A stretch of DNA of 64,000 bases, taken from the NCBI GenBank assembly GCA_903813345.2, contig CAIIXF020000005.1, positions 11,413,375 through 11,477,374 on the forward strand, read 5' to 3'. Source of the DNA: Owenia fusiformis (Eukaryota > Annelida > Polychaeta > Sabellida > Oweniidae). A model generated the notes under the pieces. It was not told the origin of the DNA. It did no database searches and worked only from the letters and a program-made list of their open reading frames with translations. Made by a program: the position numbers and the translations under genes. Below are positions 3,601 to 63,765 of the stretch, one piece after another. Every line of letters starts with the position of its first letter. The stretch's first letter is position 1.

Positions 3601-6600
3601 TGGTATTGCTGGACCTCCTCTGACTAGGATTGACTGATTGTTATACAAGATAACCAGTTGCCATGTTTAGCAAAACACGCAAAAATGTTTTGATATGGTC
3701 AAATTTGATCACTTAGAAATGTGATGCTCAATTCCAGTAAGCTGCCATCTTTTAAAATTTCACACAGGAAGTGATGTCATCAACTCTCAACTTTGCATAT
3801 AGCATTAGGTAAGGAGCTATTAAGAATTACAAAACCAGCTAAATATTCTTTTTCAACTTTGTATCTTATTTAATCCTTCTGAAAATCTCTTCTTTTATTC
3901 TTAGTTGACAAGCCCTGAAAATATTTTTGCACAGAAAGTAATGATCACTTGTCTACAAGTGATTTTGTGCTACTTTCCTATACTGTTATGGGCAAGGTTA
4001 TAGAAGTTGAGAGTTGATGACATCACTTCCTGCAAGAAATCTTAAAAGATGGCAGCTCACTGGAAATAAGCACTAGATTTTTAAATGATCAATATTGACC
4101 ATATTAAAACATTTTCCCATGTTTTGCTAAATATGGAAACTATATATATATGATTATAGCTACCGTATCAAGAGAGAAAGGGTCTGGCAAGGAATATTCC
4201 TTTAAGCAATTCTGTTATTTCTTTTCAATGTAGATGCCACATGCTGTAAATCCCTGTTGCGTCCACTAATGCTGGTTTTCTGTTTTACATTTTAAAAAAT
4301 GCCTAAGCTGACACTGTATAGGCCTCATGAGGTTTTCACAAGATGCTTCCTATGCTTGATTGATTTCCTGATGAACTGAATAGCTTTGAATGGATCCACA
4401 TTCACATTTGATGCCTGGAATGGAATAAAAGACAATGATGGTGACTATCACAATGATAGTGATGTTGGCTAGCACATAAAGGAATAAAAGACAATGATGG
4501 TGACTATCACAATGATAGTGATGTTGGCTACGCACATAAAGGAAAAAAAATTTGTATAGCTAACACAGAAATTGACGAATGACCATTTCTGGTTGTGATA
4601 TAAAAATGGTAAATGATAGTGATATGATACTTACGGCGAATAGTTCTAGTGAGCTGATGTCTGAGCGTATTTCAGACACTGATCCCCGAGTGACAATACG
4701 AGCCAAGGTAGGCATCCTACCAGTGTTACTTGACCCCTGGAGATAACAAATACATGTTGGAAATGGTCTTTTGAAATGTTCCCTTAAAGTAGTAAACACT
4801 TTTGATCAAATTTCATTTAGAAGAACAAAGCACATTTGTTGATGTAAAAAGAAAGATAATCTCATTTATATCCATCAAGCAAAATAAAACACAAATACAA
4901 GGGAATGAATAGATAATTAAAATATGAGCCCTACCATTTCAGGATAGACTATAGACATGCTGTAACACAAGTGGTCCATATCCTCAATAAAGGCTGAAAT
5001 AAAGTGAGATATCGAGTTATCCACCAGCCATTTGGCCAAACAGTCTTCTTTACATTGCCAATCACAATGAAATGAACCATGAACCATGAAATAAAATGTG
5101 CGATGTGCAAATTTGTGTCCATACATATTATGTTTAAAAATAATTTAAGTTATGAATATGATCAAGCACATCGAACAACATTGCCAATTAAAATAAAATA
5201 CAAGGTATATAAGGTAGAACAGTTTTACCATGGGCTTTTAATTAAAGCCCATGATTTAACAATGTCTTATCTAATACAAAGTGTAAAGTATAGTCAGTTC
5301 ATTCTGTAGTCCCATAGACTTTTTAAACAATGAGAAAACTACATATTATTGTTATACAGTGCATGTTATACAGTGCTTACCTCGGGTAACATAGTATATC
5401 ATATGGAAGAAATTTGCGGACGGACTTTCTGCCATTATCACAATTTCATTATCTTTTTTAGGAGTCTGAAAAGAATTAAATTCTAAAATGCATCAACCAC
5501 TTTTTATGCATATGAAAAATAACCAAGTTCCAATCACCATACTTCAAATCGAAAGTAAAGTGTACATGTATGCATGAATGCTGGAGGATAGGGAGCATTT
5601 CAAAAGATCAGTATTGGAGAAATAACTGTATTTGAAAAGTTAAGGGGAGGGGGTCATAAGCATTAAAAGTTATCTTTTGAATTTTGAAATGCTCCCTTAT
5701 TGAGACAACATGATGCAGATGTTCATGTCATACGTATATTTTGAGCAAGTAAACAGTAAAATTAGTGAGAAAAAATATTGAAAATAATTATGAGACATGA
5801 AGTTACTTGTGTGACATATTGCAACAAAATGCACGAAACTCAAAATTGCAAAATAACAATGAAACATATAGGCCACCTTAAACTTTGGTATTCCCTTATA
5901 GACCAACCACGCCAATATATCAAATCAATATAACGCAACTTGAAGTTCAGAGATATTAGTACACTGTACAAACGTCAAATCACTTACAATACTTGCATAT
6001 GCAACCACATCATCCACATGGACTGCTAGCCCAAGGATATCATGTAGATGAATCAGATCTGTAAAGTAGTTCCGGTCAGGGAACATTTTTGAGTATTGTT
6101 CAGCAGCTAATCTCCAATTTTCCTGACTTCCTGGAATAATATAAACAAAAATAAATTAAACTTGACATTATCAAATAAGATGTGTACATGTGAGCTATTA
6201 CATTAACATCAATTGAATTCTTATTGTGGAATTACATATATGTCATGATGTGAATTCACCCGGACTGAAAACACCCAGTTGATGATTTGCAAGCTATTAA
6301 CACCAAGATGAATATCTATTTTCACCAATTTGATATCCATAAGAACCAAGGAAATACTTTATTTTGACAACAGTGGGCTTTTTATTAACCACATTAGATG
6401 AACTAAGAATTTTGCACACTGCAGATAAAAAGTCATGGTGAGAAGTTTGAATAGTATTTATGACAACAATAATATATTGTATATCAAACAATTTATCATG
6501 TTTGCGTTAATATAGAACTTACGAGCTAATCTGCTATACTATAGTGCAAATGAAGAGATCTAATACATTAATTTCCACATTCAAAGCATTCAAATGAACT

Positions 6601-9600
6601 ATTTACTATCTCTAAGCCACCCACCATAGTAACGGTCTGTCTCCATGGTAACATGTACATGAGGGTGTATCTGGCTAGCACTGGCATGTGGTAAAAGATC
6701 CCACATAACTATAGGGTACTTGTAGTTAGGATCTGTGTAATGTACTTTGTTTACCCTGGAAGTAGTTAATACAATCAATAGTACATATATACAAAAGGTA
6801 GTACATATGCCCAATTGATAGAACATATATACAATAACGCAGATGCGAGTAGGTAGTTACCAGTTTCGCCACCAGGTGGCTCGTTCGGGTCAGATAACAT
6901 GGCGGGTATAGTAGAAAGTTCCCTTTAACTACATCTGTTTTAGTGGTTCAATTTTCATATAACCCTTATGTATCTAATAGTGATGCAAATTAAAGTATGA
7001 CCAGTAAAAGAAAATGTTATCTGTCAAATACAAGAAAAGATATTTCACTTTTTGTGATTTTGTAACATGGGGTCTATGAGGAATCAACCCGAACAAGAAG
7101 TCACATTTTCAAAAAAAATTAAATTTTCAAAGTTGATAAACACTTTTCGAAACCATTTTTCTAGATGTACTTCTACATGTAGATTTCAAATATGACATCA
7201 CTATGACTGAATTTTGAATATTTAATGGCTTAAATCAAGATTATTTCTATTCGCATCTAGTCTATTGATAGTACATATACACTTCTGAAATTTCAGATTT
7301 ACAAGTGATAGATAACACAGTATACAGGGTGGGCCAAAAAAAACAATACCCAAGTTTAAATATGAATGATTCATATGATGCATGTTAAACCATGCCATGT
7401 ATTATATATAATTTTAAAGATAGATCATTTTCGAATAAAATGACACCATCCAATTGAAAAACCCTTGTTTTCTCTTGGAGTTAGAATCTGAAGTTGACAC
7501 CATGGGTGCCATGAGCGACCAAAAATCAAAAAACGAAAATTCCCCAAATTTCCCTCCATATTGCAGTCACAGCTGCACTCAATATGATAGAATCATCATA
7601 AATGTATTTAAGAGTAATACACAATTGATAATTAATTAAAAATATGTAAGTATTATTGCTGAATTTTGCACTATACTTGTATAAATGTACCTCTTTTGAA
7701 GGTGCTAAAGTTCAAATTTCCCTCCATTTTCCACAATTTGGAAATCCACAGGGAATAATTTTTTGGTCGCTCATGACACCCCTGGTGTCAATTTTAGCCT
7801 CAAACTCCACAAGAAAACAATGGTTTTTTATTCAGATGGTGTCAAGTTGTTAGGATATGATTTTTCTTAAAAATGATATACAATACATGGCATTGTTTAA
7901 CGTTATATCATATGATATTCACCCTTAAACTTGGGTATTGCTTTTTTGGCCCACCCTGTATAATGTGAAAATGGGCAGAAAATGGATTCTATGGGCTTTT
8001 GGCTTTCCAATAAACATTTTTGAGCACTCAATAAGCCAATAGATTCCAGTTCATATATGCAAATGTTTTAAGTAAAGTAAAGTAAATGTATCTATGTCAC
8101 TTGCTTACCAATCCAATGTTAACTGAAAGAGATCCATGAATTCTATAAAGTTCCAGTCTAGAGGATGGTGGTTCCTGAAGACAACCATGGTGTGCCAGGC
8201 ATCATACTTGAAGGCATTAGAGGCGGTAAAGGCATGGCTTGTCTCTAGTCTTCCAAATGGATCTATCCCTGTATATCTGAATAAAGGAACAAAATAATAT
8301 GTATTTACAAGGTACCAGTGCATGTAGATCTCCTTTCAATCAATTTAAGGTAAAGTTATCATATAAAACAATCAAACACTTTGGTTGTAACACAATATTG
8401 ACACTGTCATACATGAAATGATCATATATAAAATCATCTCTAGCAATGATCGTATGAAACTCGCTGACATGTTAAATGAAGTAGAATGACATATTTGCAA
8501 CATGCTCATTTCACCGATATGATCATATTTCTAGGAAAGTGAGATATACCTTAGGTACCTGTTTTGGATAGAATATCTCAATGTTTCTCCCTTTTGGCAG
8601 GGTGAAGGCAAATTTCCAGCAGGGTAGTACATGTATGTGATTCTCAGACTTTCAAAGGGGTAAATCATCCAATTGCTATAATGCTGGGAAGATAGCATTT
8701 TCCAAATTTTACAGGCATTTTTAAACTTACTTTTTATATGTAGATTCACAGAAGTCACATGTCTTCCCACTCTTTTCAGCTAAGTTATCTACACTGGAAA
8801 ACATATAAGAATACATAATCACCAATCACTTCATTTATATGTTTTTAGGTAACTCAACATTACTATAAATTATTACTCAATTCTTTCCTGTTAGTTCGAA
8901 ATGTTATCACCAAAATGTTCTCTATTTATTCTACACTTTAATAACACGTCAAGTGTGCTCCAGCATTCTCATTGGTCACAATTCAACTTTTCGGGAAACC
9001 AAAAAATGTTTGTTTGAGAGTATAAATTTAATATATAAAAGGTACTATCAGGTAATATATTTATGTACCCAAATAAAAAAAAATCAGATAGCCATCACTT
9101 GCACCAATATCTATCAAGAGCTTTGATTTACATACAGTATTATTGAAAAATTTCAAGTAGCATTAGAACTTCCTTATTTGCATTTGCATTTTTTACATTT
9201 GCGTCAGAGTAACAGGGCCCTTTAAAATATCTAAAAATACTGCAGTGTTATTAGGATCAAGTGATGTTGACTTTTTGTACAGTGTGGTAACATCTCTGAA
9301 CTTCAACATCCAAATCATGAACTTTATGATGGCCTGGTCCATTCAGGAATGTTATGATTCAATTAAAGGGATTAGAAGAGGAAGAGAATTAACATCCCCT
9401 TTTCAATTTTTTGCCAGATTTTGTAAATCAATAGATCATCCTGAAATAAAGCTACGGCTGTTAGAAAATAAGCATGATATAGATCCTAAGATCCAAAAAT
9501 TTTAAATAAAATCATGACTATTTTTGAAAATAGGGAAAATACGACATGGAATCCTGAGCCCAAAATTTTAAATTGTGACTGTTTTGAACTCTCATATCAT

Positions 9601-12600
9601 CTCTAAACCATCAAGTCTCTTTAAATTAAATTGATGAAATCACCCTCCTATTTTAAAACCAAAGGTTATCAAATGCTATGACTTTTTAGAGTTTAATTCA
9701 AAACACTCATAATTCTCGAAATAGTCTAGTAGTTACATTAATTGACAAAATGCTGATTTAAGAGAGGAAGGAAAATTAAACTGAAAAAATGAAACATCTC
9801 CATATTTCAATTTTTGTGATTTGGATATATTGTTTATTACAAACAGCATTGGCAACAGATGCATTATTAGCAGGTATGACATTCTCATTAAATGTATATT
9901 TACTTCAGATAATTTATTTTATTTATGACAAACCACCATAAAAAGTAAAGATAAAATGAAAACATCTTTAACATGTATATTATGGACATTATGGCCATAT
10001 AGTCATGCAGGTTTCAGGTTTAAGATTTTTTAATACCACTTTTATCGAATCTTTATAATTTTACTCGATACGATTGTCACTTTTCTGAGCTGAGACTTTT
10101 ATGAGTGTTTGTCTCATTTGATAATCCAAAATTTTCATGTTTGCCGAAAATTTAACAAAAATGTTCAGTTTACGCAGGATTTACTATGTAATGTGCAATT
10201 ACAATCACACTGCTTCCTTCGCTTCCTTCCTTTTCCTCCACCCATATGTGCTATATTATGACTTGTTTTTACAGATGGGTGTCCCTTTGGAGATTTTCTC
10301 CTTATAAGAAGACATAATACGTCACCTGGGTGTAGAGTTCTCTTAAAGCTCTATGAGTCATGGTCAGGCAACAACAAAGACATGTGCTTGGCAAAAGCCT
10401 GTCAGTTGGATGGCAATGTTGTCCACTACAGAAGCAGACACCACTGTTTCATATACAGATGTGAGGCTAGCTCAGATGGCACTGATTGGGAGTATCAATG
10501 GACAAGAAATCAAATATGGGGACAGGTATATGCCAAACCTCATAGATCAAACATCAAATGCTACAATTCCTACTTTGTAAGGAGAACATCAAGCACAGTG
10601 TGGCAATACTCTGAATGTAATAATATCAGTCGTTATGATAAAGATGTAGTTCAAACTTTGAACGACTGTATGAACTATTCTTGTCACACTTTAGCTAATG
10701 TGTTCAACTACTATCCTGACACAAAGCGATGCGACACTAAATATTGTATGTGGAATTCAACAACTAGTGATTACAACTTAAATCCTAAACCTAGCTCTAC
10801 AAAGGTATATGTTTATGCTCTGATGCATATTCAACAATGTAGCACAATACCTCCACCCATACAAATACCAGCAAACACTAACATGTCTTGTCAAGTGACA
10901 GGGTATTTCCAAAGCCCCACAGAACCTGACCAGATAAATGATATCTTCTGTAAGTCTCGTTCAAATACATTTACACTAAAAGATCGAGAGAGTGAAATGA
11001 GGAGTCATTATTGTTATAGCAACCATGAAGGAACTGGATGGAAGATAATTTCAGATCAAGATGTCCCTTGCTTTAGTGATAATCAAACGAAGGAAATGTT
11101 TGTCATGCCATATCCTGGCACACCAACCTGCCAAGGAAATATGTTTATCATAAAACAATTTCAACAACATTGCAAAATATCTGCATGTTATACACATGGT
11201 GCTGAAACTGGATTAGACCTCAGACAGTGCATGATACGTGCATGTGAAGGTGGTGCAAATGTTATCAATTACAGAAGTGCCAAAAACATACATGCATCAA
11301 GACTTCCATCTGTATGTGATTTGAGAACCTGTTTAATTCATAATGGTCAACTTGATTTAAACCTCACCTATAACAGTACAGGTTTTGAGGTTTATGTGCT
11401 GCACACTACACAAGGAGCAAAATCAACAACAATGACACCATCAACAACGACACCATCAATAACGACAACATCAACAACAGATCAACAAGAAATCATTTCT
11501 TTCGAAATTGCCACAATAGTTATGGGAATCTTACTTGTGGTTTCAATTGTGGTGATTCTGATAACTTGCATCATGTTAAAAAGACAACATACTAAAAGAA
11601 AACATGAAATGAATTCTCAAGATGACAACCTGGCACCTCTTAAAGATTATGCAGACAATGTCACTGATAATAATTATGTAAATGATTCTTTTATTGATGA
11701 GATAAGCTATGGAAATCAGAATGATCCAATTGTACAACAGAGCATTGCCAGAACTGTTAATGAAGGTGCCCTTGAAAATGAAAGAGATGAGGAGCTTAAC
11801 TTTATGATTGATCCAACTGGACCAGAGAGAAAGGTCAGAACTGTTACTGAAGGTGCCACTGAAAATGATAGAGACAAGGAGCATAACTTTATGAATGATC
11901 CAACTGGACCAGAGAGAAAAGTCAGAACTTTTAATGAAAGTGCCCTTGAAAATGACAGTGATGGGAAGCATTACTACATGAATGACCCAACTGGACCAGA
12001 GAGAAAAGTCAAAACTGTTAATGAAGGTGCCACTGAAAATGACAGAGATGGGGAGCATAACTATATGAATGATCAAACTGGACCAGAGAGAAGAGTCATA
12101 ACTGCTAATGAAGGTGCCTTTGGAAGTAACAGAGATGCCACTGAAAATGACAGAGATGAGGAGCATAACTATAGGAATGATCAATTCGGACCAGAGAGGA
12201 AACCCAGAATTGTGAATGAAGGTACCAGTGAAAATGACAGAGACAAGGAGCATAACTACAAAAATTATAAATTTAGACCAGAGAAGAATATCATAACTGC
12301 TAATGAAGGTGCCTTTGGAAATAATAGAGATGCCACTGGTGCCACTGAAAATGACAGAGATGAGGAGAATAACTATAGGAATGATCAATTCGGACTAGAG
12401 AGGAAAGCCAGAATTGTGAATGAAGGTGCCTTTGGAATTGAAAGAGACAAGAAACATGGTTATAGTTATGTTACTCTTGACAAAAACAGAGATGAGAAGC
12501 ACAACTATAAGAGTATGAAAGTCAGAACTGAAAATAAAGGTGCTCTTGGAAATGACAGCGATGAGGAGCATGACTATGTGAATGTTCCCATTACACCAAA

Positions 12601-15600
12601 GATGAAAGTGAGCACTATTAATGTTAAAGACAAAGAGTGTGTCTATAAGAATGATCCAAGTGAACCATAATGGAAAGACTGAACTGTTGATCTTGGTAAT
12701 AACTGAGACAAAACTATGGAACAAGAATTTCTAGGAATTTCATAAGGAATCAAGTGATATCTCTTGCATAGTCACAAAAAATGACACCCATCTTACGTTG
12801 CATAGGTTGTTTGTCCATTATAATATAGGCTTGTTCTTTGGCACGTTCAAAGTAGACATGGATGTGAAATTCCTTTGCAGACACACATGGATTCTGCACA
12901 AAAAATGTCACCCAGTCTTTGTAACATAACTTTGTAAATACAAAATAATGTAGTTGTAGATAAAATCACTATAACTTATTTCCAAAATTATGTTACAAAA
13001 AGTGGGTGTCGTTTTTTGTGTAAAATCCAGTTGTGCCAACAAAGGAATAGACGGCACATTTTATAACGCTCATAAATGCGCATCTAGGTGAGCCAGTCAT
13101 CTGAAACTTCTTTTGAAGTTTTAATGTGCAAAAAACAAGTCTGAACTTCTGCAGACAAAAAAGTTGTGTGGGTTGGTGCCATTTATATTGTGTCACGCTG
13201 TATATACTATTGAATTTGTGACAAGATATCTTCTATAATGTACTAATATAACTTGTAAAAATATGGGAATAAGTCATGTTTAGCTAATTTAATCATGGGA
13301 GTGAAGTCAATGAAATGATAATTTAGAGCAAATGTTTTCAATTTTAAATGGGTTATTCATCAAATAACCTTGATTATTATATCACTGTCATATTCCCAAC
13401 TCTCTCATTGGTCTACATATTATATGTGACATAGATGTATTGTGTATATTATATGTGACATAGATGTATTGTGTATATTATATGTGACATAGATGTATTC
13501 TGTATATTACATGTGACATAGATGTATTCAATGGCCATGCCTGTGATGTCACAAAAAAGGCATATTCAATAGGTGTATTAACCAGGTGTATCGTTTCGTC
13601 CAGTGTAAATGTGAGTGATAGAAAAAAAATCTGATAATTCTTGTTCTTATAAGACATTGCCAACAGCAAGGGAGTGGTAAATATAGCAGTGCACAATAGT
13701 ATGAAATATTTGTATAATATTGATTTAAAAGAATGACCTATCTATATATTTTCATGTGAGACGTGTTATATTGAATAACTAATGCTAATATCTGTAATTC
13801 ACATATAGTATGCCATCTATGACAGATTACTGATTTGCAGTGAATCTCTTCAACATTTTCCTCATTATGAATTGAAATTTGATAATTATATCACATAGTA
13901 GGCGTAAATAAATGTCAATTTGACATTTCATAAAAAATCATCGGTAAATTTTATTTTTATTCAGGGCAGGGCCATGGTTTCAAAAGCGAATAAAAGTAAA
14001 CAGTAAATTTGTAATTTGTGGCAAAAAGTGGTGAACAATAAAAGATGAACAGTGAAAGTGTTCAGCAGCATAGGCACTTATACCATTTATTGTCAGCATT
14101 TAGGCCCGTAGCAAGGGGGGGGGGTTGCAGGGTTCGCCCCCCCCCCCCCCCGGCCCAAAAAAGATTCTTTCAAAATTGTCAAATGTGAACCCCCCTGGAA
14201 ATTTTTGAAAACTGAACACCCCCTTGGCAAATCCTGGCTACGGGCCTGGCATTCCTATCACTTAGCAAATGCATCCCATATCAAGTAAGTTAAACCTGCA
14301 TTGTTTTTTTGTTTGCTGAATACTATTTATGTGTTAACAGAGTTTCAAGTAACTCAACTCAATTATCTGATAACATTCTAATGTTGAGTAATATGTGTAC
14401 AAGAACAAACAAATCTGATTTATATTTAGTCAAACCTGTTTTAAAAAAGACTGCCTTGAAAAGTAATTATGATGGGATCAGTCAATATTTCATTTGTTGG
14501 GAAAGACCAGCATACAGCATAGTTACGTACACATATGCAAAGTAATAGAGAAAACTCCTAATAGCTATTTTGAGTTAAAAGCGAACTTGAGAGTCCAAGG
14601 GTTGTCTGCGCAAAAAGTACCATGATTGTGACGTGCATGGACCTAGGGACAAGTCAAGAAATCTGAAGTACAACGTAATTCTATATGCTTCACAATGATA
14701 TCATTTTTTCTAGAGATTTAATGTGATCTAACATACTTTTAAAGTTAAATATAGCATGACATCATCAAATATGTTGTGAGACACTTTACACTTGCACATT
14801 TCGTTGAAATTTGGATAACTTTAGAATTGATAATAAAAATTTTACTAAATGTTATGCTGTTGGAAATTCAACAAAGAGGAAGAATGAGAAAATGCAATGG
14901 AGAGGTTACTTTGATGTGTTATGTGTTGATGGTTACATTCTGTTTGAATACATCACAACTGATTAAAAAATAGCAACAGTAAACTGAAATTATTCTATTG
15001 ACATTACTTGAGCTTCAGATATATAAATCAAAACATTGACTTTGAATACACATAGTATTGAAAAGAGTTGTGCAAATTGATTTATTTGTACATTTGTCAT
15101 GTCAATTGTGAATGACATTTCCGCCTGGTTAGAAATATGATGATCTGATAGAATGGGATATACGCATGAATTTAAGAGAAAAATTAAAACTACAAATGTG
15201 GCAATAATTTATTCGCTTCTTCGTGGCATCATCCTCTTCATGTTGTCCTTTTGCGAATCAATTAAGGAAGATCCCATGAAATGAAACAAATATGTTATTT
15301 CTTTCGAACATTGATGTATTTTTTGTTCTGTGTGTCAATGTAAACAATTTGTTGTTAAAAATTGGAAGATTTTCACCCACGTAGATCAGCGGTAGCATCG
15401 TAATACGGCCACTATTATTCAAAATGCCTGCTCACTAACCAAACTGTCATAAGAATGTGTAATATGCTTCTAAGTATCAGTTAACTTCTTTTCCAGTTAT
15501 AGCCAAAGAAGATATTTACATGCAAGTGTTAATGTTAAAGAGCAAGTTTAATTTTTTCTATTTGATGTGAGTGGGAGAGTTATAAATCTGCATATAAATC

Positions 15601-18600
15601 AGAACTAGTCACTTGATATGACAGTGTGTCATCCAGATATCAGTGGAAATGATCATAGGGAGGAAAGAGTAAGTTATTATTGATTTTGGAGCACTTCATC
15701 CAGAGTAGGTATGCTCATATCAAAACTGGAGAGCCATATTTAGATTATAAAATTGTAAACTGTTAATAAAATGTCAATAATAATGTGACTTAACATGAAT
15801 ATTTGTATTTTTCCCTGCTCAATACTATCATAGCTAAATATTTATTTATTTTGACCACTTTAAAATAAGGAAACATTTTCATGTCCTAATGTAAAGGGCA
15901 ATAACAATATAATAACAACCACCAATTTCCTCAAATGCAGGATATGTCTTGCAATCAATGTCTCATTTCTCTATCTTTTTATTTTATATTGCAATAGTTT
16001 AAATCAGAAAGCAAAATGAAATCACCAAAGTTACAGCTTATTATTCCTGGCATATATTTGATGCTAACATTCTTTGTATTTGCAGCACGTGGAGATGAGG
16101 GTAAGAATTAATTACTTTGGTAAATACAAGCAATTGCATGAACTGAAGAAATAACTGTATATTTTTAGCTTATAAAATGAATCTATGTAAAATGGACAAA
16201 TATGGCAGTACAAAGGCAGTATGATAATCAATTAAATGTAATGATGATAAATTAATTAAAGCATAAAATTTTATATAAGGTTAGATTGGTAAATGTTCAT
16301 GATGTTCACATTTAAGATGTTCATGATGTACAAATTACTGGCAAATCGAATCAGTCAAAGTATTTGCGTGTGAAAAGTTGAAAATGTGAAGTAAAATTAG
16401 AGACCATGTATTGTTATATATTTCCAGATTGTTATTCTGGAGACTTCCTCCTTGTAAGGCAAGATCGTTATCCTGGCTGCCAGATATTAGCGCAGTTTTA
16501 CTCTCCAGGGCTGGTCAACTCAAAAAGGCAATGTTTCAACAAGGCATGCCAACTTGGTGGAAATGTAGTGCATTATAGGCAAGGCTATCATTGTTCTGTT
16601 TACAGATGTGAAAGCAACACAGCAGAAAATGATTGGAACTATCAGTGGCGCTATCAAACTAATCGAAGGGGGCATGTATATGCTAAGCCTCACTCCTTCA
16701 TACCCAGATGTTATAATTCATATTTCATGAGGCGAACATGGACATGGGGAGAATATTCAGAATGCATTCTATATGAACATATATATGATGAAGAGCTCAA
16801 GAACTGCACGACATACATGTGCAACAGAAAAATTGGAAATGCTCTAAACTATTATCATGACCTCAGACAGTGTGACATAGTCTATTGTAAATGGAGCCCT
16901 GCACATAATGATTACAATTTAAAACTTTCTAGTAGGAGTGGTAATGTTGATGTTTATGCTCTCATGCACAAAGAACAATATGACACCACTTTTCCAGAGA
17001 TAGTAGTACCCTCATCCATTCCAAACTGCCGCACAAATGGGGATTTCCCCACTCAAGGTGTTGTACTTGCTAATCTACTTTTAACCCAGTATGATTCCAA
17101 TGGTTATGTAAAGTCATCAGCCGATAATTCAGTAAGAAGCTTCCAATGTCCGAGGAACCACGAAGGTACACAATGGGATTTGTATAGCGATCAAAATACT
17201 TGCTTATATCAAGGTTCAACCAAATTAATGTCAATTGTACCATATCCAGGTACACCAAACTGCGGAACAGCCATGTTTGCTCTCAAAAGAGTTAAACAAC
17301 TTTGTGAATTCTCTTACTGTGGATTGAGTTATACACACTATGGAAACGATCTAAGGGAGTGTATGATATATGCTTGTGAGGGAGAAGGAAATGTGATCAA
17401 CTTTTACAGTTCAAGTAATAGTTCAAGAGGCATATGTATATATGGTAGATGTAGCATGTCTTCAAGTGGAGAATACAACCTAGAGTTAAATCATGAATCT
17501 GACAACAATGGGCTGGGGTTTGATGTGTATGCACTTCAAGAGATGTCAATAACAACAACGCCAAAACAAACAACTACAACACAATCAGCAACATCAGCAA
17601 AACCAACAACATCAGCACAACCAACAACATCAGCACAACCAACAACAACAGCACAACCAAAAACATCAGCACAACCAACGACAACAAACCCACCTGACAC
17701 AACAACTATATTCAAAGCTCCTGAAACAACATCACAGTTACCAACCTTAAATAAAACAGAAAGTATCACCCATACAAATCCTCCATCATTTACACCAGAG
17801 CAAACTCAGCTTGCCCAATATCAGCAAGAGATTCAACAGTTAAGAGCAGTTGCCATTGTATTGGGTTTATTTCTCTTAGTAGCTTGTGCAATAATTGGAG
17901 TGATATTTATCTACCGGCACAATAAGAGTAAAATAGTTGATAATCAAAACAAACCACCAACAAATCCTTTAACAGACCAGGAAGATGCAAGTGAAATGAC
18001 CAATACAGCAAATGATCCAACTGGTCTCAAACTACATGGTAATGAAGATGTAACAAATGAATATGAAACTGCAAACATTTATGAAAATGAGGCAATGATG
18101 TCAGAAGATGAAGTTAATGTTGATTTTACAAGAGCAAGTGGAGCTAGGTATGAAGAAATTTCAATGACCAATTTAGCAAATAATCCCACTGGTCCCAAAT
18201 TACATGTAATTACATGCACCACAAACGCAGATGAGCCTACGAACATTTATGAAAATCAAGAAATGATGATGTCAGAAGATGAAGTAAATGTTGATTCCAC
18301 CACAGATGAAGCCAGGTATGAAGAACTTCATATGGGCTCTGATGCTCCTATAGATAACAGTCAAACCTATGAAGAACTGCGGGTGGACTTTTCTCAATCT
18401 GCTTAAATCGGTAACAAGAAAACTTTAGAGGAAGAAGATTATACTGACGGCACCAACTTCCACGATAGATACATCCATCTTGAGTATGAAAAATATATAC
18501 ATGTACTTACTATAGTCTCTCAGATATTTCTGGTTTAGTGATTGGTCGCTTCCCTCTGAGTGGATTGAATATGGTACTATCTCTGGTGAGTTCATTGAAG

Positions 18601-21600
18601 GTAATGGTGATTGTCTGAAATTACAAAATGTTACACAAATTGAGCAAAATGTAGCTGTTCTGTAACTGTGATGTTAAACACATATAAATACATATATGTT
18701 TTTCCAACGGAGGCCAGCTTTACAAGCCTTACATGGGGATGGGGGGGGGGGGCTTGTTGTGTATTGTAACCTATTTCCCTCTGTTTAACCAAACTATTCC
18801 ATCAACAATTAAACATACTTTATGTTGACATAATCCTCAAACAATACAAAAGACAAGACAATACCTGGTGCTGAGCTTCCTCAAGATACTTTTTGTTTCC
18901 TCCAAGCCATTTTAACATCTTTGGAACAAATGTGTCTGGAATGTTCAGTGAACCTGACCTCTTCCTCACTGTGAAGATGGTGTTAAATATAGCCAGGTAT
19001 TGCCTGAAAAAGACACACTGATTTTACTTTTCCTTTAAAAAAAGCTTCTGGTTGCCATATTGGATTATTTCATGTGTCACATAATTTGTCATACAATAAT
19101 GTATATAAAATATCATTTTCTGGAGTTATCGCAAAAAACTTTAAAAGTGACATATATTGGCTGGTATTTCTTAATGGTTGCCATGTTGGACAAAATGTCA
19201 TAAGAAATTGAGTCATGCTTCTTATATGCAAGTAAATGGAATTACAAATAAACAACAGAATTGCTACATAACTTTCAAATGAAAAAACAACATAAAACAG
19301 AACACTGACTTCAAAAACTGTTAAAATAATGTAAAAACAGCTTCAAACTTAGACGCATCAATTGCCCCCTTCCACTCCCCCAAAATGAACCATTGTAACT
19401 ACCTGCAAACAGGGTACGTTGACACATCTATTCCCCCTCCCACTCCCCCAAAATGAACCATTGTAACTACCTGCAAACAGGGTGCGTTGAAATCTTCCAC
19501 TCCTCCACCATATCATATAGTACTCCTATAGATGGCGTTGCAAATTTATTGAAGCACATGTTCTTATATTCCTCCTGGATATAAAACAAAATCACATGTA
19601 AATAATGTATTATTTGATACATGTCATACTCATACATATACGATATACAAACATTCAATATACAATATTCAAACATGACCGTGCTCTATTCGAATTTCTC
19701 AACCAATCAGAATGCAGCATAGCCAATATAGAACGTTCTCTAATTCTCCATAGATGCACGACCATGCTCTATTCAATCTGCAATTTGCATTGTTTTGAGT
19801 GACGTCACATCTCAGCTGCACATCTGGGGCTCTGTCCGGGGATAATCTTGACAGCATGCATATTCTTCCTTCATGCCCGTTCCACAGACACGGCTTTTAC
19901 TAATTTTTATGTTTGAATCGGAATAAATAATGATAGGCCATTCAATATGGTGAAATTCAGCACTCGTTGGACAGAATGTTAGTACAAATGCACTCACCTT
20001 CGGTTCGTGCTTTGTACAACATTCTGTCGAACTCGTGCTGAATTCCACCATATTGAATGGCCTATCATAATTATTCCTTAAATTGAACCCGGGCATAAGA
20101 AAAGGGGTTCTATCCCCAGGTCTTATTACAGATTTTTCAATACTTTAATTTTTTGCATATCTTAAAAAGCACTAAGACACATTTCAAATGAGCCATGGCT
20201 TATGTCTTAAAAAATTTCTTTGCAGATATAGACCAAACAGATTTGAATTTAGCATATAAAGGTTGCATCTTCACCTCAATAGACTGATATCTTAAAGTGT
20301 AAGCATGCTAGTAATAACTACAGATAGCTAGAAATGATTTATGAGCACAATGTAAAGCAATTAAATGATATATTAAGTAACAATTTCAGGTGGATATGGC
20401 AATTTTGCTTCTCTTTACTCATTTTCACTTTTTAAGCTGAGCTTCCTAATATTTTTGTAACAATTCCCAAGATATGACCCAGGTATTCTATGATTAACAC
20501 CTGAACAAATATTAGCAAGTTGCAAAATACTGCAGGTTTTTATTTTTCATAATTAGGCATTAAAATTATGTAATGATTTTAGGAGGCGGCGTGGCACTTT
20601 ACTTCAAAAACCATCATATGAAGGTTGTTTCTGCTCAAGAACCAAGTGTTTTATTTAAAGGCCCCATATAAAGTTTAAACCACTTTGGCTTATATTGTAG
20701 TCTTACCCAATGTTATCAAAGTGTGATATCTGAAACTTTTTTTTTAAATTTCAAAAAGTGGTTTTTGATAGATTTTTTGTTCCAAAATTTGTGAATTTAT
20801 TTAAAACCAACTTTTAGAGGTCACTCATATCTTCTAATTAGCCACAATCCATACCAATGCGTAGCATTCATCCTCCCGTGTTTTTTGCCGAAAAAATTAA
20901 GAAAATTGGTTCATAAGCGAGAAATGAACTTATCAGTGCATGAAAATGGTTCTGAGAAAAATGCATTTCAAAATTTTAGTTCTCATAGAAACCAATGGTA
21001 CAATGATATCTAAAACATAATTTATTCTTCCTTTTAACCTGGTTAGACAATCAACATTGTTTTTTTATGAAAGTCTAACATATTTAGAAAAGATTGACAA
21101 AAAGTTTTTGGTACCTTAGTGACATCACTAATGTTTCAAAATATTTTTGATATGCTAAAACATTGAAGTGGCCCATTAAATATGGCATTTTATTATTGAA
21201 ATAGTGTGTCCTTTGTTCAACCTTTGCATTGGTGTTAAAAAGATAATCTTTTTTGAAATGCATTAAGAAATATTTGATGATTAAGAAATTTCAACTTTTT
21301 TTGAAAAATGGCGGGAAATTTGAATATTTGAGAAATGAAATGCTCACAACTTTTTTTTCAAAAACATTTTTTTTGTTCAAAAATCTCTAAAATCACTTTT
21401 TAAGTCCTGACAAATAGTAAATGAATGATAAAAAAATATTTTCAAACTTTAGACGGGGACTTTAAGTGTAAACATGCTAGTAATAACTTCAGATAGCTAT
21501 AAATGATTGATGTGCAATATGTTAATTAATTACATAATTAATGACGTAACAATCTAAGGTAGGTGTGTCAATTTTGCCAACATACCAGGGGCATGGTGCT

Positions 21601-30442: not shown

Positions 30443-31172
30443 GAGTAATATCTAACTATTCCATCACAACACAGTGATATATCTAACTATTCCATCACAA
30501 CACAGTGATATATCTAACTATTCCATCATAACACAGTGATATATCTAACTATTCCATCACAACACAGTGATATATCTAACTATTCCATCATAACACAGTG
30601 ATATATCTAACTATTCCATCACAACACAGTGATATCTAACTATTCCATCACAACACAGTGATATATCTAACTATTCCATCACAACACAGTGATATCTAAC
30701 TATTCCATCACAACACAGTGATATATCTAACTATTCCATCACAACACAGTGATATCTAACTATTCCATCACAACACAGTGATATATCTAACTATTCCATC
30801 ATAACACAGTGATATATCTAACTATTCCATCACAACACAGTAATATCTAACTATTCCATCACAACACAGTGATATCTAACTATTCCATCACAACACATTG
30901 ATATATCTAACTATTCCATCATAACACAGTGATACATCTAACTATTCCATCACAAAACAGTGATATATCTAACTATTCCATCATAACACAGTGATATATC
31001 TAACTATTCCATCACAACACAGTGATATATCTAACTATTCCATCACAACACAGTGATATATCTAACTATTCCATCACAAAACAGTGATATATCTAACTAT
31101 TCCATCACAACACAGTGATATATCTAACTATTCCATCACAAAACAGTGATATATCTAACTATTTCATCACAA
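30443..31172. repeat. Minisatellite, 31-33-bp unit, >20 copies
   Basis: Perfect to near-perfect copies of 'atatctaactattccatcac' followed by 'aacacagtgat', with a 2-bp (at) indel separating 31- and 33-bp variants. Variants such as cataac and caaaac are interspersed, suggesting unequal exchange. Confidence 0.9.
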
Positions 31173-37460: not shown

Positions 37461-40400
37461 GTATGAAGCTTTGGATTCATTTAATGTGCTACTTAAAGTG
37501 AACGGGAATTATTTTTCTAGAGCTTGGGAGAGTTTGAGACACGAAACTTGGAATTCAGCTCATTGTGACAACTTTTGATGGTTGAGGTTTATTTTTGTCC
37601 CCCACTTTATTTGCATTTATGAATTTTAGCGCTCATAGATACTCCAATATAGACCAGTTCATCAATTGTTCTAGCTATCGTAACGCCACGTATCATATTA
37701 GAATTCAAATTATAAGTGCAATAGAGCCAATAAACAGAGTTATAAGGAGAGAAACAAAATCTTACCTTTTATTTTCACATTCTTGTAAGTCTAAATGACA
37801 AACTAAGATGGTACAGTACAGAAAATAATGTTTTTGATATAACTTGATAATGTAAACACTAATTGTAGAAAACTTCAAAATTAGTATATTTTTACATAAC
37901 ATTTTGAAAAAAAAATACACTAGCCTGTATACAATCAATAAGAAATAAAAAGTCATAATTTCGCTTTTCGAAAAGTTTGAAATCTTTTATTCCAGACCGG
38001 AAATGGCTGCTCAGCACTTACATCATGTTGAAATAGGAGTAAAAAACTTGGATTTATCCCTGAAAGCATTTACTGAACAGTTTCAATTTGAATTGATAGC
38101 TACACGAGAAACCAAGGCATCGAAACAATGTGTGTTGAAAGCTGGTTCTTCAATAGTTGTGCTCACAGACCTAATGAAAAATCATAAAATAAATTTTACA
38201 AAAAATGCAGACGATGCATCAGGGGTGATAATTGATGATTTCATTTATGACTGGAGTTCACATTTTCATCAAGTAACTTCAGACAATAATAGAGTTGCTA
38301 TTGATTCGGTTTTCAATGTTGCTTTAGAGGTAAAGAACATCGATAAATGTATTGCTAATGTGACTCAAAATGGGGGTGTCGTCCTACAACCTAACAAATC
38401 CATTTCTGACTCTAATGGCAGAATCAAGTATGCAATCATTAAGTCCTGTATTGGGAATGTGACACACACTTTGCTCGAGACTAAGGATTATTCTGGTGTG
38501 TTCCTGCCTGGATTTGATATAGAACATCCATTTGACAATTCAGAAAGGAAATCCAACCTAATCACGCATGTTGATCATGTTGCTTGTGTAGTGCCTATTG
38601 GCTGTTCAAATGCTGTACAAGATTGGTATGAACGATGCTTCAAAATGAAGCGATTTGTTGTGAACAGGTAAATGTTCTAGGAATTATTTAATCCCTTACC
38701 CTGTGAAGAATTCAATTAACATAAATCAAACATGCAGTTCAACTTGTTATTTTCATAGTCTAAATCTGATTTGCATGCCCACAGCCACCAAGAGTTTAAG
38801 GGATTCAGTCAAAAATTTTGTAACTAAATTTGATAAAATTTAACCATTGACTGATATATAAGTAGCATTGTGGTCCCGTTTATATCGATGACAAGAGTTG
38901 AAATGACCTCCTATTGGGAATACTTGACAGAGGGCACCGTTGAAAGACCCCAGACCCCTCTAGCTTGTGGTGCTCTGCACAATTGACACTTTCCATGGAT
39001 GTGTGACACATCCCACCCATATGCTAAAATCACTCTCACCTCTTTAGAAATCGATATCACTCTAAACATGCTATCATTCTAAGCATGAAGAGTTAGAAAA
39101 GTCTGTAAACTCGCTCAAAAATCCAGTCGGCCCCAGGTTTTTTAAGAGTGTGTCTAATGAACCGTCCTTACATGCTTTTGCTCCAAGTTTCAAAGTTTCA
39201 AGTTTTATTACCTTATAACCAAAAGAGGGTTTCTTTGTCAGTACTGTATCTAAAAAATGGGAAAATTTGCCTTACCTTACTCTCTGTATGTCAGTAATGC
39301 TAAACATTGTCTGTCTGATAGTTTTATAATAGGGTCTGTTGCTTTGTTGTGTGATATTTATCAAGCCTAATAACTAGTAAAAATTCTAGTTTTCACAATT
39401 CAGACCAAAATTGGTCAAAATATGCCCATTTTTCATGATTTTTCTCATTTTCAAGTGGGTGCAAAATCTCAGGTGGGCGCTGCGTCTACTTGCTACTAAT
39501 TTTGGGGAGATCACTTCAAATATACTGTGTTTACTATATTTTTAGTGAAGAAGATATTCTAGATGGCTACGTTATCAAGGACATGGGGGTTGGTATGAAA
39601 CTGATGGCACTGGAATACTGGAAATGTTCTGAGGTTGGTTTACAATCTCAACATGAAGATGGTCTAAAATTAGTTTTAGCAGAACCATTACCCGGTGAAG
39701 GTAAGGAGATAAGATTAGATAGGATTTTACAACTTTCTAAGTACAGAACATGCATAGAATCACAAAAACCCACGGTTCATACTGAATAGAAATGTTAACA
39801 AAATTAAGGTATGCATCAGCAAGAATAATTAAATTCTGAGTAGCTTATTGGCAGTTTGTTTTTGAAGACTGAAGATGGGATGAAACATTTCACTTTTGTA
39901 ATGTTGAAAATCTTGACCAATTATGTAATTTTCAAAACTTTAACCAATTATGTAATGCTCAAAACATTGACAAATTATGTAATGCTGAAAACCTTAACCA
40001 ATTTTGTAATGTCCAAAACCTTGACCAATTATGTAATTCTCAAAACCTTGACCAATTATATAATGCTCAAAACCTTGACCAATTATGTAGTGCTTAAAAT
40101 TTTGACAAATTATGTAATATTCAAACCCTCGACAAATTATATGATGCTCAAAACCTTAACCAATTTTGTAATGTTCAAAACCTTGACCAATTATGAAATG
40201 CTCGAAACATTAACCAATTTTGTAATGTTAAAAACCTTGACCAATTATATAATGCTCGAAACCTTAACCAATTTTGTAATGTTCAAAACTTTGACAAGTT
40301 ACGCAATGCTCAAAACATTAACCAATATTGTAATGTTCAAAACCTTGACCAATTATGTAATGCTCGAAACATTAACCAATTTTGTAATGTTAAAAACCTT

Positions 40401-53407: not shown

Positions 53408-53745
53408 TGAATACAGTGGACACCATGTATACAGTCTGTTACATGATCCAGGACACTCTGTATATAGTCTGTTACATGATCCAGGACACCCTGTATACAG
53501 TTTGTTATATGATCCAGGACACCCTGTATACAGTCTGTTATATGATCCAGGACACCCTGTATACAGTCTGTTACATGATCCAGGGTACCCTGTATACAGT
53601 CTGTTATATGATCCAGGACACCCTGTATACAGTCTGTTATATGATCCAGGACACCCTGTATACAGTCTTATATGATCCAGGACACCCTGTATACAGTCTG
53701 TTACATGATCCAGGACACCCTGTATACAGTATGTTACATAATCCA
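53408..53745. repeat. 33-bp minisatellite
   Basis: About ten copies of 'ccaggacaccctgtatacag' with 'tctgttatatgat'. The 33-bp unit keeps two frames open at once, giving overlapping ORFs of ~93 and ~113 codons that are artefacts of periodicity. Confidence 0.9.
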
Positions 53746-53820
53746 GGTATTCTTTAGATCTAGCCTGAAAAACTTAAATCATGTGTGGTGTGTGGAGTGT
53801 ATGAACAAAATGTTGTTCAC

Positions 53821-63194: not shown

Positions 63195-63765
63195 TGACTG
63201 TCCCTCTGAGGTTCTTTATATGATTGTTACTTCGAGGTTCTATGGTTGTCAATTTGAGGTCCTATGGTTGTCAATTTGAGGTTCTATGGTTGTCCATTTG
63301 CGGTCCCATGCCTGTCAATTTGAGGTTCTATGGTTGTCAATTTGAGGTTCTATGGTTGTCAATTTGAGGTCCTATGGTTGTCAATTTGAGGTTCTATGGT
63401 TGTCCATTTGCGGTCCTATGGTTGTCAATTTGAGGTTCATTGGTTGTCAATTTAAGGTTATTTAGTTGTTACTTTGAGATTCTATGGTTGTCAATTTGAG
63501 GTTCTATGGTTGTTACTTTGAGGTTCTATGGTTGTCAATTTGAGGTTCCATGGTTGTCAATTTGAGGTTCTATGGTTGTTACTTTGAAGTTCTATGGTTG
63601 TCAATTTGAGGTTCTATGGTTGCCAATTTGAGGTTCTATGGTTGTCAATTTGCGGTCTTATGGTTGTCAATTTAAGGCTCTAAGGTTGTCAACTTGAGTT
63701 TCTATGGTTTTTACTTTAAGGTTCTACAGTTGTCAATTTGAGGTTCTTGGTCACTTTAAGTTCTA
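63195..63765. repeat. 22-bp minisatellite, ~25 copies
   Basis: Copies of 'tctatggttgtcaatttgag' plus 'gt', with variants (gttactttgag, ccatttgcggtc) at irregular spacing. Confidence 0.9.

Follow-up and report, generated by a model that had tools for sequence, protein, structure and literature searches.

In a 64,000-nucleotide stretch of the Owenia fusiformis genome (contig CAIIXF020000005.1, positions 11,413,375 to 11,477,374; hereafter the window), we found a two-exon gene on the forward strand, gene A, whose 826-residue product is probably a multivalent receptor that recruits Grb2-family adaptors. Its C-terminal part is an array of repeats carrying the tyrosine motif YxN, a docking strip that would have been multiplied by tandem duplication and that would bind adaptors once phosphorylated. 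Gene A belongs to a large family, and the best reading of that family is that its tails have been remodelled by minisatellite-like amplification of tyrosine motifs. Direct support comes from the gene structure, the predicted fold, the topology read from the sequence, the excess of the motif, its recurrence in related tails and Grb2-like loci that keep a specificity tryptophan. The size of the family, the apple-like character of the cysteine-rich part and another paralogue that multiplies a different motif are new relative to the original prediction, which had read this segment of the window as an adaptor-recruiting tail.

Exon 1 of gene A (9789-9873) holds the start codon, a signal peptide and a phase-1 donor, with a GT at 9874, and its frame joins that of exon 2 (10275-12670), a single open frame that encodes the rest of the protein including the stop. 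The splice junction is predicted, being read from the sequence and from the matching arrangement in a paralogue in the window, gene B. The signal peptide is followed by a Cys-rich ectodomain, a Thr-rich stalk with some Ser (11417-11503, including a Tandem Repeats Finder, or TRF, row at 11427-11478), one transmembrane helix followed by basic residues (11504-11575; maximum mean hydropathy 3.26) and a predicted cytoplasmic tail of 364 residues with 15 tyrosines (11576-12667). As far as sequence can show, the tail is cytoplasmic, because the N-terminus is hydrophobic, there is one strong helix, cysteines are distributed asymmetrically (of the 437 residues N-terminal to the helix, signal peptide counted, 25 are Cys, against one of the 364 that follow it) and a basic stretch, LKRQHTKRKH, lies just inside the membrane. 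This bears out the original prediction of a Cys-rich receptor with an intracellular repeat tail. N-glycosylation sequons, eight before the helix and five after, do not discriminate between the two sides, and the tail is classed as disordered by the Uversky boundary. A Pfam scan of the whole protein gave sub-threshold matches alone, to nine families at E ≤ 1. The best of them lie on the membrane region (ErbB1 membrane segment, 9.3e-5; SIT, 0.00025; TMEM154, EphA2 and others), and none reaches its cut-off. No kinase domain was among the nine, where receptor kinases are represented only by the sub-threshold ErbB1 and EphA2 membrane segments.

Nine of the tail tyrosines stand in a YxN context, namely Y496 (VND), Y507 (GNQ), Y596 and Y625 (MND), Y661 and Y729 (RND), Y690 (KNY), Y796 (VNV) and Y819 (KND); the other six do not. 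Residue-shuffled tails carry 1.88 such sites on average and none of 20,000 shuffles reaches nine, an excess that the shuffle null overstates, since tandem copies share their sites by descent and are not independent. Two of the nine, YVND (Y496) and YGNQ (Y507), lie close to the array (11675-11716), and seven fall inside it (11753-12667), among units of mostly 29 residues. Six of the ten units have exactly that length, three have 36, 39 and 38 residues, and the last is truncated to 18; TRF reports an 87-bp period at 11719-12137 and rows of longer period up to 12451. The Tyr or Phe sites of the array lie at 11801 and 11888 (both Phe: FMID, F538, and FMND, F567), 11975, 12062, 12170, 12257, 12374, 12461, 12506, 12575 and 12644, and one further unit deviates in reading YSY/YKS. 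The nine YxN tyrosines, with the same numbering in our spliced model, the repeats of about 29 residues and the exchange of Tyr for Phe in two units had all been described beforehand and are confirmed here. Across the 11 anchored sites, position 0 is always Tyr (nine) or Phe (two), Asn stands at +2 in eight and both Tyr and Asn are present in seven, while Asp is found at −5 in all 11 and Glu at −3 in eight; +1 and +4 to +6 are more variable.

A search of the genome (G000) with the gene A ectodomain gave at least 62 matches at E ≤ 0.001, some genes giving two. Fifty-three distinct places were retrieved (labels L0xx) and six matches were left out; the counts that follow are lower bounds. In 25 places, a single frame spans the query from no later than residue 10 to at least residue 360 (27 rows, of which two are repeats). 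With membrane helices called by hydropathy alone, 35 of the 53 have a helix and an in-frame tail of at least 20 residues, six have a shorter tail and twelve have no helix in frame; some of these last may be secreted or have further exons. In a tree of 32 rows, from which one row of fewer than 180 residues was excluded, gene A pairs with L007 (96/92) and gene B (L004) with L031 (97/92), whose match is limited to the first half of the ectodomain. Both pairs fall into a group of eight (100/99) together with L002, L003, L005 and L006, and L008 is found elsewhere, with L009, L017 and L037 (99/94).

YxN is present in 13 of the 35 tails, gene A counted, and occurs at least twice in five of them (gene A, gene B, L002, L005 and L007), all within the group of eight. 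L007, the nearest paralogue of gene A, has two YVN sites and no array. Leaving aside gene A and the long-tailed L040 described below, the remaining 33 tails hold 17 YxN where 10.2 are expected (0.023 of 5,000 shuffles), and the six closest ones hold 11 where 3.73 are expected (0.0004 of 5,000 shuffles); these p-values, like those given below across tails, treat related tails as independent, and the group of six was picked after the tails were seen, both of which weaken the test. Control motifs in the 33 tails fall below expectation (YN, 3 against 10.3; YxxN, 4 against 10.1), and ectodomain tyrosines of the family show no excess of YxN (44 against 58 by composition). YxxL/I/V is also abundant in tails other than those of gene A and L040 (39 against 17.2 expected; 0 of 5,000 shuffles). 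Gene B has the same layout as gene A, with a hydrophobic N-terminus and signal peptide in exon 1 (16016-16100, forward strand) and, in exon 2 (16428-18406, forward strand), a tail with two IYEN, one YEEI and two YEEL; part of this tail lies in a 168-bp duplication of two copies that carries a Tyr block (17995-18325, by TRF). In the L005 tail, a 30-bp duplication of 2.4 copies carries the Tyr block. Gene B and L031 tails align at IY(E/Q)NEAM (0 of 500 shuffles), and the membrane-near YVN aligns between gene A and L007 (0.014 of 500 shuffles); eight of 21 tail pairs fall below 0.05, uncorrected for the 21 pairs.

A second array is found in L040 (G000, C3:21510873-21514400), which is L008 read further. 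Its 618-residue tail, from about 1400 on, has 30 tyrosines and 19 Yx[DE][VILP] sites against 1.0 expected (0 of 4,000 shuffles), with a single YxN against 3.3 expected. The array unit is 66 bp in 11.2 copies, or a 126-bp double unit, and its sites mostly read YAEV or YTEP, with YDEV also among them. Different tyrosine motifs have thus been multiplied inside one family, in at least two separate clades. The Yx[DE][VP] of L008/L040 may be a Nck-like docking motif. The 19 sites, some of them YDEV, recall Nck-binding YDxV tails, from which they differ in that most are YAEV or YTEP; the resemblance concerns this paralogue and not gene A. For the link between YDXV motifs and Nck, our source is the title of a reference in PMC9333988.

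Several observations weigh against reading the gene A array as a docking strip. Tyr and Asn are well kept in the repeat, yet no more than several other positions, such as the invariant Asp at −5. Over whole 29-codon units, omega is 0.98, near neutral (five of ten units used). A genome search with the whole tail returned gene A alone, and a profile of nine gene A units scored no other family tail above shuffled controls (best real score 0.8 bits; shuffles up to 10.1). FxN is enriched as well, at 9 against 4.17 (0.018) across the 33 other tails; the six close ones show an excess of FxN (4 against 0.84; 0.008) and of reversed NxY (8 against 3.71; 0.024), so part of the YxN signal in other tails could reflect an Asn-rich neighbourhood or decayed sites. 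Tested singly, only L002 (0.032) and L007 (0.018) among the other tails with YxN fall below 0.05, with gene B at 0.19 and L005 at 0.12. Finally, Arg or Lys stands at +1 in four of the nine gene A sites.

Some of these points could be accommodated by the chief rival, a neutral coding minisatellite, in which a single ancestral YVN near the membrane is the functional site and the array arose by slippage in a disordered stretch that is tolerated and includes the motif by chance. We regard this as rather unlikely. It would accord with a unit found nowhere else, with the whole-unit omega, with two of ten units that lack Tyr and a third that reads YSY/YKS, and with a nearest paralogue that has YVN sites and no array. 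It fits less well with an omega of 0.62 among the repeat cores (eight of 11 sites used, leaving out both sites of the odd unit and the one in the truncated final unit), with seven units that retain both Tyr and Asn, and with a repeated block that carries a tyrosine motif in all four tails scanned for repeats (gene A, gene B, L040 and L005). Given the difference between the core and whole-unit values, the core is at most mildly constrained, with Tyr and Asn among the kept positions but not alone; selection on these two residues by themselves is not demonstrable with so few units.

Candidate partners for the proposed docking sites are encoded in the same genome. Flies have one Grb2-type gene, and a search with fly Drk gave 45 genome matches. 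Four Grb2-like loci on C9 (L061-L064, at 22.19, 19.76, 22.91 and 22.93 Mb) hold SH3, SH2 and SH3 pieces in order; their first exons are incomplete, and beyond these four only L060 was examined, which has SH3-SH2 pieces alone. The specificity Trp, which selects Asn at +2, is kept in all four, within (F/Y)(L/V)WVVKF(N/D)SLN. L061 and L062 are alike at 44 of 46 residues in the second SH2 exon, and L064 is an outlier with 21-23 matches to the others on 45 read positions. According to PMC7337045, Trp EF1 in the SH2 domain of Grb2 makes the peptide adopt a turn, Asn at +2 is very strongly preferred and its replacement by Ala costs 1000-fold in affinity (one figure legend says glutamine where the text says asparagine). 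In two further papers, pYxN is the motif of Grb2-family SH2 domains (PMC6669380) and pY-(L/V)-N-(V/P) a higher-affinity form (PMC3787023). By the latter rule, Y796 (YVNV) would likely be the best site and YVND a plausible one, and the four sites with Lys or Arg at +1 are likely weaker, since they depart from it; the two YMND sites are plausible by analogy with the YMNM of CD28.

These basic residues, together with Asp at +3 in six of the nine sites and the six tail tyrosines outside YxN, would suit a phosphotyrosine scaffold for other SH2 proteins (the Grb7 family or others) or for mixed partners, with Grb2 minor. We think this improbable, in view of the strong Asn +2 preference of the Grb2 domain and the attribution of pYxN to its family (PMC7337045, PMC6669380). 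The idea of an adaptor-recruiting scaffold is strengthened by a tail that is cytoplasmic by sequence, by YxN far above chance, by YxN in other tails and by Grb2-like loci with Trp, and is weakened by the four basic +1 sites. It is very improbable that the tyrosine motifs are instead trafficking signals or non-phosphorylated spacers. Eight paralogue tails do have a sequence similar to endocytic signals, Yxx[IL] and then DESxM(L/M); in gene A, Yxx[LIVMP] takes in 4 of 15 tyrosines against 2.6 expected, and YxN is, to our knowledge, not an endocytic YxxPhi signal.

The ectodomain of gene A is predicted to comprise four apple/PAN-like modules, at 10274-10555, 10556-10849, 10850-11125 and 11126-11416 on the forward strand in the open-frame coordinates of the model. 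The model was built on an alignment of family ectodomains (A1; 32 places giving 33 rows, with L007 split in two and several rows partial), with a predicted local distance difference test score of 89.1 and a predicted template modelling (TM) score of 0.88, and each predicted module has one long helix (35-44, 129-138, 218-227 and 316-326) and several strands. By profile, module 1 matches each of the other three modules and module 2 also matches module 4; pairs 2-3 and 3-4 gave no profile match. Among the best 50 of 225 Foldseek matches of the ectodomain model, all eight at E ≤ 0.001 (3.4e-7 to 4.7e-6, probability 1.00) are apple domains of factor XI or plasma kallikrein. The weaker ones include further apple/PAN proteins (Toxoplasma microneme apple domains, a Sarcocystis lectin and AMA1) and Wsc1, among unrelated proteins such as thyroglobulin and G-protein complexes. 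Factor XI and plasma prekallikrein are secreted proteases that, like the model, have four tandem apple modules. Whole-chain superposition on factor XI/kallikrein is poor (TM ~0.2, root-mean-square deviation ~21 Å, ~10% identity), so single modules may match apple domains while their arrangement differs. No PAN, Apple or other credible Pfam model matched the 33 A1 rows at E ≤ 1, and PDB sequence and profile searches with the ectodomain were empty or at noise level. With a structural match and no PAN/Apple sequence match, the ectodomain is predicted to be an apple fold that is not filed in the Pfam PAN family.

If gene A acts as a multivalent receptor, the four modules would be its recognition part and the disordered tail its docking strip. 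Ligand would cluster the receptor, a cytoplasmic tyrosine kinase would phosphorylate the YxN sites, and several Grb2-family adaptors would bind side by side, with higher local adaptor concentration and longer dwell time; with Sos-type partners, Ras/MAPK output could follow, much as with LAT or the EGFR tail. Valence would have been raised by tandem duplication of a single 87-bp coding unit, Phe units being silent, and output might depend on valence, as described for condensates of the EGFR tail with Grb2. Expression of gene A, its ligand, phosphorylation, adaptor binding and output are all steps that we infer.

Multivalent pYxN tails are known from work on LAT and EGFR, each of which has only a few sites, and gene A would work like such a docking tail; it is not a demonstrated member of those families. 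LAT is not known to have a large ectodomain. It is a transmembrane protein that recruits Grb2-family adaptors through several pYxN sites (PMC6669380). LAT has three Grb2-type sites, compared with nine in the gene A tail, seven of which are in tandem units. LAT was not among the nine Pfam families at E ≤ 1, no search having been aimed at LAT or SIT descent. SIT (SHP2-interacting transmembrane adaptor, PF15330) gives a weak match covering the helix and the start of the tail (E 0.00025), at 22 bits where the curated cut-off is 27.6. Sub-threshold matches to ErbB1, TMEM154 and EphA2 membrane segments fall in the same place, so the SIT match looks like a generic one to a membrane helix. The EGFR tail is likewise disordered, has several Grb2 sites and condenses with Grb2, and these condensates enhance Ras activation by SOS (PMC9181613); EGFR has its own kinase, whereas the Pfam scan of gene A gave no kinase match. 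Among the titles listed by literature searches, with limited reach into subscription papers, none describes this receptor layout, which is no proof of absence. The Alr proteins of Hydractinia have tails with tyrosine motifs and, as far as we know, no repeat-amplified motif array. They too are many paralogues in one invertebrate genome (41 members; PMC11999971), but with immunoglobulin-fold ectodomains.

More tentatively, this apple-like receptor family may tune signalling by minisatellite-type amplification of SH2-docking motifs, members independently multiplying different codes (gene A the Grb2-type YxN, L008/L040 the Nck-like Yx[DE][VP]) beside extra Grb2-type adaptor genes, so that repeat copy number would be the means by which valence and the choice of adaptor evolve. 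If true, the family would offer a natural series in which to test the effect of docking valence on adaptor clustering and Ras output, as well as an example of invertebrate receptors that diversify inside and not only outside.

Further family members show other features. L041-L055 are shorter relatives that match about the first half of the ectodomain, ten of the 15 at C4:14.74-14.79 Mb, and the eight tails with Yxx[IL]DESxM(L/M), a conserved short signal, are those of L042, L044, L045, L049 and L051-L054. In a cluster of L010-L013, L015 and L030 (C12:15.72-15.80 Mb), the frame stops shortly past the ectodomain and includes no membrane helix, and these proteins are perhaps secreted. The ectodomain match is split between frames in L005, L006, L007/L018, L036, L037 and L039, through introns, assembly errors or broken genes. 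A third family member near gene A and gene B, L033 (C5:11408100-11409950, minus strand), lies ~3.5 kb before the window start, and its tail has EYVQ and no YxN. PTGP-like stretches occur in both the gene A unit and the gene B tail; a common origin of the two was considered and rejected, as the unit profile scored no tail above shuffles.

Elsewhere in the window, exon-like open stretches of one or two genes flank genes A and B on the minus strand (4600-8300 and 18500-19590), and four pieces of them that were scanned gave no Pfam match. An open frame at 37949-38671 on the forward strand matches a glyoxalase/dioxygenase model below its cut-off (E 0.0013; 19.6 bits, with 20.6 required) and is possibly 4-hydroxyphenylpyruvate-dioxygenase-like. 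TRF also reports tandem arrays at 30448-31172 (31 bp, ~24 copies), 53418-53747 (33 bp, ~10 copies) and 63219-63751 (22 bp, ~24 copies).

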